Assembly: GCF_015160875.1 (NCBI RefSeq)
Contig: NZ_CP063374.1
Coordinates: forward strand, 434,001-498,000
DNA from: Streptomyces chromofuscus
Lineage (GTDB): Bacteria; Actinomycetota; Actinomycetes; Streptomycetales; Streptomycetaceae
DNA length: 64,000 nt
Direction of reading: 5' to 3'
Each line of letters opens with the position of its first letter. Positions within the stretch are counted from its first letter, which is position 1. The translations under genes were made by a program, and so were the position numbers. Positions 49,397 through 51,325 of the stretch are shown one piece after another. Under the pieces are notes generated by a model that saw only the letters and a program-made list of their open reading frames with translations, searched no databases and was not told where the DNA came from.

Positions 49397-51325
49397 TCAG
49401 TCGGTCAGGGGGGCGATGCGGAAGGAGTGGTTCAGACGGCGCCACTCCCCGTCGACACTCCGGCCGTCCGGGGTGGGACCGGTCTGCGGGGCGAAGTCGA
49501 CGACGAGCTCGTCCTTCACGCCGAAAACGGTGTCGCTGTCGAGGTACGAGCCGCCGGCCACGAACAGCTGCGTGACGAGCCGGCGGTGGCCGGGCGCGTC
49601 GATCATGAAGTGCAGGTGCGGCGCCCGGTACGGGTGGCGGCCGACCGCCGAGAGCATCCGTCCCACGGGGCCGTCCTCCGGGATCGGGTACTCCGAGGGC
49701 AGGATCGACCAGAACGTCAGCCGCCCTTCGGCGTCGCTGCGCAGCCGGGCCCGCAGGACGGGCCCCTCCAGCTCCGGCAGCTGAACGTCGTAGAAGCCGT
49801 CCTCGTTGGACTGCCACACGTCGACGACGGCGTCCTTGACGGGCGTGCCGGCCGTGTCGGTGATCCGGACGTCCACCCACAGCGGCGTGCCGGGCAGGCC
49901 GCCGGAGATGTCGCTGCCGTGGGGGGCCTCGGGCGGTCCCTCCACGTAGAAGGGGCCGAGGACGGCGGACGGTGTGGTGTCCGGGGTGCGGGAGTTGGTC
50001 AGCAGGTCCACGGCGCTCGAGACGCCCAGCACGTCCGACAGCAGCACGAACTCCTGCCGGGTCGGGCCGCACAACTGTCCTGTCCGGGTGAGGAAGTCGA
50101 TCGCGTACTGCCATTCCGCGTCGGTGAGGTCCTGCTCGGCCACGAAGGAGTGCAGGTGCCGTACGAGGGCGGTCAGCAGGGTGCGGACACGGGGGTCGGG
50201 CGCGTGCGCGAAGCTCGCCACCACCTGCTCGGTGAGCCGGGCAGTCAAGGAGTCGGCGGTTGCGGGCCCCTGGGGACGGCGGCCGTGCCAGGCGTCGGCC
50301 AGCAGGCCCTCGATGCCCTGGGCGGTCAGTTCCCGGGGGTTGGGGTACGGCGTCGCCACGGCCAGCTCGGCCGCCCGGCCCAGCTCCGCCTCGGGCATGC
50401 CCAGAGCGCTCAGCGACGTCGGCCCGCCCAGCGTGGCGATCAGGTCGTACACCCCGCTCGGGGCGTCGGGCACGTCCAGCGCCCGGGCGATGCGGCGCAT
50501 GGCGTCCGGGGCGGCGGGGGCGTTGTAGGCCATCGCGTGCGGCAGGATCACGGTGTGCGTCTCGGCGTGCGGCAGGCCGAAGCTGCCGCCCAGGGTGTGG
50601 CAGAGCTTGTGGTGCAGGCCCATGCCCACGGTGGCCAGGCAGGTCCCGGCGAGCCAGGCGGCCTGCAGCAGGTCGGCCCGCGCAACCAGGTCGGAGGGGT
50701 CGGCGGCCAGCCGGGGCAGCGCCCGCCCGATGAGGGAGATCGCGTCGAGGGCCCGGCGGTCGGTGACCGGGTCGGCGTCGGCGGAGTACAGCGCCTCCAC
50801 GGCATGCGCCATGGCGTTCACACCGCTGGTGATCGACATGGGCAGGGGCAGGGACAGCGTGAAGTCGACGTCGTAGACGACCGTCTCCGGCAGGATCGCG
50901 GGCGAGGACCGGGTGACCTTGTGTCCGTCCCGTGTCTCCCCGAGCACGGGGGTCACCTCGGATCCGGCGTACGTGGTGGGTACGACCACCTGGGGCAGGT
51001 CCGTGCGCACCGCGAGCGCCTTGGACAGGCCGGTGGTCGATCCGCCGCCGACGGACACGAGGCAGTCGGCGTCCGCCTCCCTCAGTACGGCGAGCGCCGC
51101 TTCCGTCACCTCGGTCGGCGTGTGCATGGCGGCACCGTCGAACTCCGCCGCCAGCAGCCCGCCCAGGGCGTCCCGGACCCGCGCGGACGCCTCCGCGAGC
51201 GGCGGGCTGGACAGCAGCAGCACCCGGCTACCGCCGAGCCGCCGCACCTCCTCGGCGAGGTCGCCGACAGTGCCGGAGCCGAAGAGCACCCGTGCCGGAT
51301 GGGAAGTGTGCACGAACGTCCGCAT
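49397..51325 (-). CDS. Maleylacetate reductase fused to hydroxyquinol 1,2-dioxygenase
   Basis: This 642-residue protein joins two enzymes that are normally separate. Residues 1-350 are a maleylacetate reductase of the iron-alcohol-dehydrogenase fold (NAD site VSVGGGSTTGLSKALA near 91; metal-region residues AMAHAVEALY near 171, LHHKLCHTLGG near 237, PHAETH near 252). Residues from about 358 on are an intradiol dioxygenase with Fe(III) ligands Tyr460 (LGPFYVEG), Tyr546 (SEYPIPEDGP), His570 and His572 (PHLHF) and the N-terminal helices of the hydroxyquinol group. The dioxygenase opens hydroxyquinol to maleylacetate, which the reductase turns to 3-oxoadipate. No stop or frame change separates the halves. 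Confidence 0.9.
   Translation of the reverse strand: MRTFVHTSHPARVLFGSGTVGDLAEEVRRLGGSRVLLLSSPPLAEASARVRDALGGLLAAEFDGAAMHTPTEVTEAALAVLREADADCLVSVGGGSTTGLSKALAVRTDLPQVVVPTTYAGSEVTPVLGETRDGHKVTRSSPAILPETVVYDVDFTLSLPLPMSITSGVNAMAHAVEALYSADADPVTDRRALDAISLIGRALPRLAADPSDLVARADLLQAAWLAGTCLATVGMGLHHKLCHTLGGSFGLPHAETHTVILPHAMAYNAPAAPDAMRRIARALDVPDAPSGVYDLIATLGGPTSLSALGMPEAELGRAAELAVATPYPNPRELTAQGIEGLLADAWHGRRPQGPATADSLTARLTEQVVASFAHAPDPRVRTLLTALVRHLHSFVAEQDLTDAEWQYAIDFLTRTGQLCGPTRQEFVLLSDVLGVSSAVDLLTNSRTPDTTPSAVLGPFYVEGPPEAPHGSDISGGLPGTPLWVDVRITDTAGTPVKDAVVDVWQSNEDGFYDVQLPELEGPVLRARLRSDAEGRLTFWSILPSEYPIPEDGPVGRMLSAVGRHPYRAPHLHFMIDAPGHRRLVTQLFVAGGSYLDSDTVFGVKDELVVDFAPQTGPTPDGRSVDGEWRRLNHSFRIAPLTD

Follow-up and report, generated by a model that had tools for sequence, protein, structure and literature searches.

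The enzymes hydroxyquinol 1,2-dioxygenase (HQD) and maleylacetate reductase (MAR) act in consecutive steps, and a single open reading frame in Streptomyces chromofuscus appears to encode both of them. This raises the question of whether the frame is a true gene for one protein and, if so, how the two enzymes came to be joined and what their joining provides. Here, we analyze this frame within a 64,000-nucleotide stretch of the S. chromofuscus genome (the window) together with its relatives in other genomes and plasmids. The reading that we strongly favor is that of a bifunctional enzyme of aromatic catabolism, taking hydroxyquinol to 3-oxoadipate, that was probably fused once and that would benefit from the proximity of its two parts.

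One frame encodes two whole enzymes

The open reading frame read-out places a single frame of 642 codons, beginning with ATG, at exactly 49397-51325 on the minus strand of the window. Pfam domains cover most of the protein, with Fe-ADH at residues 10-152, ADH_Fe_C at 165-346, Dioxygenase_N at 377-447 and Dioxygenase_C at 457-617. In sequence searches of solved proteins, residues 1-352 (50270-51325, minus strand), which make up the MAR domain, are nearest to the MARs 3w5s (E 8.4e-107), 3hl0 and 3jzd. The nearest solved protein to residues 362-639 (49409-50242, minus strand), which make up the HQD domain, is the hydroxyquinol 1,2-dioxygenase 1tmx (E 8.5e-88), with the best catechol dioxygenase, 2azq, matching far less closely (E 7.9e-34). 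The joint between them, at approximately residues 353-371 (50213-50269, minus strand), runs into the first HQD helix (357-370). All 20 of the matches between the fusion and curated NCBIfam models fall under the cut-offs of those models, and they neither support nor refute the assignment.

Three solo reductases from other loci (L174, L175 and L176) stop at most 6 residues past a Gly-x-Arg-Pro motif that they have in common with the fused MAR. The MAR part thus ends at the natural C-terminus of single-domain MARs, and two whole enzymes have been joined. The sequence-only reading of this DNA had proposed a natural fusion of two complete, consecutive enzymes, and this is borne out: both domains are whole as judged by Pfam and by solved structures, and they share one frame elsewhere. 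That reading had also looked to a stop or frameshift between residues 345 and 365 as the evidence that would speak against a fusion; none is present in the frame, and the same holds for 80 of 80 loci from named genomes. We conclude that 49397-51325 is a true fusion gene. Beyond this gene, the S. chromofuscus genome (7.48 Mb, one contig) holds only two further matches to the fused protein (2.2e-5 and 9.4e-4), and no other good match to either half was found in it.

Catalytic residues of both halves are conserved

Alignment to 1TMX places the iron ligands of the HQD half at Tyr512, Tyr546, His570 and His572, the residue letters of the 1TMX ligands agreeing with the 1TMX chain sequence. Three members of the iron set named earlier from the sequence, Tyr546, His570 and His572, are thereby upheld. 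The fourth, Tyr460, aligns with Phe112 of 1TMX and is ruled out as a ligand, its place being taken by Tyr512; among 18 unfused HQDs, 10 carry Phe at this position, 6 carry His and 2 carry Tyr. All four ligand residues are kept in 26/26 fused HQDs, a hand-picked subset of the larger alignment described below, and in 18/18 unfused ones. The hydroxyquinol pocket is similarly preserved: among eleven pocket residues of 1TMX, whose letters likewise agree with the chain, 10 are identical in the fused protein, the exception being F108, which is replaced by Leu456.

Leu456, Tyr460 and Gln586 occur in all 26 of the aligned fused HQDs. Among the 18 unfused HQDs, Phe is found at 456 in 10, Phe or His at 460 in 16, and His at 586 in 16. 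These three residues look like a clade signature of fused HQDs and might alter specificity.

The larger alignment comprises 43 fused proteins, namely the window protein and 42 loci chosen by hand to be diverse (L178 and 41 of the 80 from named genomes); L160 was dropped for its stop, and L107, with its broken frame, was not chosen. None of the catalytic positions in either half varies among these proteins (43/43), and the same is true of Asn170, His174, His238, His239, His243, His253 and His257 of the MAR half. Position 170 is, going by the family motif, the position of the metal-binding Asp. Section 3.7 of PMC5125639 describes MARs as carrying Asn or Arg where metal-binding relatives carry Asp, a rule that Asn170 of the fused protein matches. 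In the same source, His243 of GraC is proposed to touch the substrate. His243 of the fused protein, which is His in 43/43, aligns with position 263 of chain 3w5s_A, and this position would be GraC 243 if the chain carries 20 extra residues. We think that the fused protein is a conserved and very probably bifunctional catabolic enzyme, with activities predicted from its residues and relatives.

The fusion occurs across actinomycete genera

The suggestion that the same fusion should be sought in other actinomycete genomes proved fruitful. In a scan of named genomes, both domains lie in one open reading frame in all of the best 80 loci (80/80); the frame of L107 breaks within the HQD half, and that of L160 ends early. 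These loci, two of which (L138 and L139) come from one genome, give no total or frequency. Their record titles span many genera, among them Streptomyces, Streptacidiphilus, Amycolatopsis, Saccharopolyspora, Halopolyspora, Actinomadura, Nocardia, Pseudonocardia, Actinomycetospora, Umezawaea, Crossiella, Actinokineospora, Kibdelosporangium, Kutzneria, Actinoplanes and Rugosimonospora.

Frequencies come from four overlapping samples, each of which includes the window genome. Within the genus, 27 of 392 genomes carry the fusion as we read the match rows, a count that includes G311, where two pieces share one 677-residue frame, and G192, which has one broken and one whole copy, and that excludes G422 and G410, where a stop separates the MAR and HQD genes. 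The fusion is found in 8/293 genomes of the order sample, one of which (G857) belongs to another genus, in 3/394 of the class sample, none of them from outside the genus, and in 1/296 of the phylum sample, which is the window itself. On plasmids, 5 records match at 80% identity or more, all from Streptomyces, and 350 records match at below 60%. As far as the listing shows, the five Streptomyces records share the MAR-HQD two-domain product name.

Several candidate variants were also considered. The loci of G422 and G410 (L056 and L057), at 52-53% identity, are ruled out as fusions by the stop between the genes. Outside the actinomycetes, the plasmid matches from Azospirillum and from strain RW1, each merged into a single piece by BLAST, are separate frames (best 30 of 355 plasmid records). 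The reverse, HQD-first fusion was not seen among 112 two-domain open reading frames in 173 loci, several of these loci representing one gene twice over.

Individual loci showed further peculiarities. In S. spinoverrucosus NBRC 14228 (L107, 6001-7933), the HQD half is split across two frames, and the same split occurs in L041 of G192, the genome that carries a second, whole copy. L152, from Kibdelosporangium aridum, and L153, titled Rhodococcus rhodnii NRRL B-16535, have the same layout and near-equal identities, and the title of L153 may reflect a misnamed strain.

The fusion heads a putative hydroxyquinol operon

In the window, the fusion is the first gene of a minus-strand operon and is followed in order by genes for an FAD hydroxylase, CoA-transferase subunits A and B, and a thiolase. 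The FAD-dependent hydroxylase (47617-49380) starts 16 bases past the end of the fusion. The 3-oxoacid CoA-transferase subunit A lies at 46856-47614, with a GTG start set by the length of an annotated orthologue (46856-47767 in the open reading frame list), and subunit B lies at 46218-46859. The thiolase occupies 45031-46221, its start again set by the length of an annotated orthologue (45031-46389 in the list), and its best NCBIfam match is 3-oxoadipyl-CoA thiolase, under the cut-off of that model. An AraC-family regulator (43927-44796, plus strand) is convergent with the operon.

The closest solved relatives of the FAD hydroxylase are 2-hydroxybiphenyl 3-monooxygenase and 2,4-dichlorophenol 6-monooxygenase; none of the NCBIfam models shown matched it at cut-off. 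Both relatives hydroxylate beside the phenol hydroxyl, a reaction that on resorcinol would give hydroxyquinol. The hydroxylase is thus a probable source of hydroxyquinol, with the choice of substrate being a guess from homology. In 58 of the best 80 named loci, the hydroxylase shares the strand of the fusion and lies directly downstream of it; it is directly upstream in 11 and in neither position in 11, the last group including L160 by our criterion, where a hydroxylase is present with a match that overlaps that of the fusion. A relative of the AraC regulator is found at 55/80 loci, and the hydroxylase, CoA-transferase A and thiolase are all downstream in 14/80 (pieces examined, up to 6 kb). 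In one Actinomycetospora locus (L144), a close relative of the gamma-resorcylate decarboxylase 2dvt (E 1.4e-193) sits upstream of the fusion, between it and the FAD hydroxylase. Such a relative is absent from the window and from every locus examined except L144, whose neighborhood lends support to a resorcinol branch. Protocatechuate is given in PMC10815724 as an alternative known source of hydroxyquinol.

We envision a pathway wherein the FAD hydroxylase most likely turns resorcinol or a similar phenol into hydroxyquinol (1,2,4-trihydroxybenzene), the C-terminal half of the fusion would open the ring to give maleylacetate, and the N-terminal half would use NAD(P)H to reduce maleylacetate to 3-oxoadipate. 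From 3-oxoadipate, the operon's CoA-transferase and thiolase would then produce succinyl-CoA and acetyl-CoA.

A probable single fusion of neighboring genes

The two enzymes were said to be normally encoded by separate neighboring genes, and we find this arrangement commonly: an HQD gene lies near an unfused MAR in 33 of 49 loci, the remaining 16 having no HQD in the piece examined. The reductase-first order of the fusion, which had been thought remarkable, turns out to be one of the two usual orders, with 17 of the 33 unfused pairs MAR-first and 16 HQD-first. The seven unfused pairs with the most similar MARs (L056, L057, L059, L062, L170, L171 and L172) are all MAR-first. The nearest unfused HQD (G679, L177) stands in a MAR-HQD-hydroxylase row, where the sequence GTGA combines the TGA stop of the MAR with a GTG that shares the HQD frame. 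In L056, L057, L170 and L171, the separate HQD frame starts directly past the MAR stop in the same frame.

We built trees of each half using one row per 80% cluster (67 of 140 MAR and 46 of 131 HQD sequences, with short pieces and exact copies dropped). In the HQD tree, a branch with SH-aLRT 90 sets the 28 fused rows apart on one side, and the unfused HQD of G679 is sister to them. Since the fused HQD halves form one clade, a single fusion event is suggested. Fused rows are not one clade in the MAR tree (4 changes), where unfused reductases from G474, G599, G591 and G679 fall among them, and this calls for later losses or a more complex history. The AU test marginally rejects a constraint that unites all fused rows (p 0.040) and does not reject one that also takes in G474 (p 0.127). 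A more careful MAR tree of 49 rows, to which G1197 was added and from which 19 more distant rows were omitted, requires 6 changes. The fused rows come together in none of its 200 bootstrap trees (0%), and G474 is joined to a fused row from Streptomyces with support of 99/90. G679 is on a long branch and its position differs between trees. No HQD match was found within the 18 kb examined near the solo MARs of G474, G599, G591 and G1197. Both trees would be most simply read as a single fusion, after which a few lineages lost the HQD half. We suggest that the fusion probably arose once, from a MAR-HQD pair in that order whose intervening break was lost, and then spread among actinomycetes.

Solo MARs 58-68% identical to the fused one were seen at L174 (8762-9838), L175 (8384-9508), L176 (8197-9354) and L183 (7957-9027), again with no HQD match within 18 kb. 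The solo MARs of L174 and L175 each adjoin a carboxylesterase-like gene (Abhydrolase_2), hinting at another pathway. Fused Streptomyces genes appear in several places among Pseudonocardiaceae and Micromonosporaceae in the trees, and some are on large plasmids. These scattered positions and plasmid copies are signs of horizontal transfer.

A probably flexible joint and the possible benefit of fusion

The full-length structural model has a mean pLDDT of 88, falling to 70 at residues 351-360. Its MAR half fits 3jzd well (TM 0.97, rmsd 1.3) and its HQD half fits 1tmx badly (TM 0.71, rmsd 13). When modelled alone (residues 360-642, 42 rows), the HQD half reaches pLDDT 92 and pTM 0.85 and fits 1tmx (TM 0.94/0.91, rmsd 1.6), with HQD chains taking fold ranks 1-6. 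The predicted fold of both halves is normal, and we set the full-length model aside as a guide to domain arrangement because its HQD half misfits 1tmx while fitting when modelled alone. The parent enzymes are dimers: HQDs are dimeric, and a table of PMC5125639 gives GraC as a homodimer.

One explanation for why the fusion was kept is substrate channelling, wherein maleylacetate would leave the dioxygenase site and reach the reductase site directly, via a fixed interface of the two domains. The consecutive steps and the retention of the fusion across many genera are in keeping with this idea, which we nonetheless consider unlikely. The joint (residues 348-372) ranges from 19 to 51 residues across the 43 fused proteins, a variation in length that favors a flexible tether, and its commonest residues are Ala, Pro and Gly. 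Mean column identity falls to 0.53 in block 341-360, which together with 41-60 is the lowest in the alignment, the last two residues aside. The pTM of the full-length model is 0.66, and the MAR trees place unfused reductases among the fused. Closeness of both sites is plausible; a dedicated tunnel finds no support here. We hold similarly low expectations of a scheme in which the dimerizing domains assemble a closed or extended particle that keeps maleylacetate local, with the MAR half later freed in several lineages and reused in another pathway. Were this true, nature would have provided a series of separate, fused and re-separated enzymes with which to test what fusion buys.

Less likely still is that one half alone is active, or that an internal start additionally yields a separate HQD half. 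ATG, GTG or TTG is present at aligned residues 349-365 in 17/43 fused genes, with TTG in the window gene, but ATG is found in the joint in only 2/43. The invariance of catalytic residues in both halves (43/43) and the want of another good match to either half in the S. chromofuscus genome argue against a half-active protein. That an error of sequencing or assembly has run two genes together into this frame is scarcely conceivable: we found no point in its favor, and it is ruled out by the same frame in other genomes, both domains sharing one frame in 80/80 of the best named loci (even counting the broken HQD of L107 and the early end of L160) and the Streptomyces plasmid records annotating one protein.

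We return to a tethered bifunctional enzyme, in which the main effect of fusion would probably be fixed 1:1 expression and closeness of the two enzymes on a flexible tether. This catabolic enzyme of two steps occurs naturally in many actinomycetes and can be set beside related unfused pairs and solo reductases, which makes it well suited to finding out whether the joining of consecutive enzymes helps via expression, proximity or channelling. As a candidate bifunctional enzyme available ready-made, it could also be put to use on waste streams of the resorcinol or lignin type.

Comparison with known systems

The MAR-HQD architecture is already known from public annotation: the Streptomyces cadmiisoli orthologue WP_112443237.1 is annotated as 'maleylacetate reductase and hydroxyquinol 1,2-dioxygenase domain-containing protein'. 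In the titles and abstract beginnings of the open-licence literature, a scope outside of which most subscription journals lie, we found no paper describing the fusion, and we know of no assay of WP_112443237.1 or of the window protein. WP_112443237.1 resembles the window protein in its two domains, their order and approximately 90% identity, and its locus has the same operon of hydroxylase, CoA-transferase A and B, and thiolase with the AraC regulator; we saw no substantial difference between the two.

More distant relatives are single-domain enzymes. The MARs 3w5s (GraC), 3hl0 and 3jzd are 50-52% identical to the fused N-terminal half, match its fold at TM 0.97 and share Asn at the position of the metal-binding Asp, but each stands alone. 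The HQD of Nocardioides simplex 3E (1tmx) shares 50% identity, the iron ligands and 10/11 pocket residues with the C-terminal half, but is likewise single-domain, and the fused protein has Gln586 for His237, Leu456 for Phe108 and Tyr460 for Phe112. A further related arrangement is the dxn cluster of Rhizorhabdus (Sphingomonas) wittichii RW1 (Swit_4887-4892), where MAR, HQD, CoA-transferase A and B, and thiolase are adjacent; a table of PMC3425912 gives Swit_4890 the name dxnF. The RW1 order is hydroxylase, MAR, HQD, CoA-transferases and thiolase, with MAR and HQD as two separate genes, unlike the fusion in the window. Its FAD monooxygenase is 28% identical to that of the window and sits before the MAR, whereas the window's follows the fusion.
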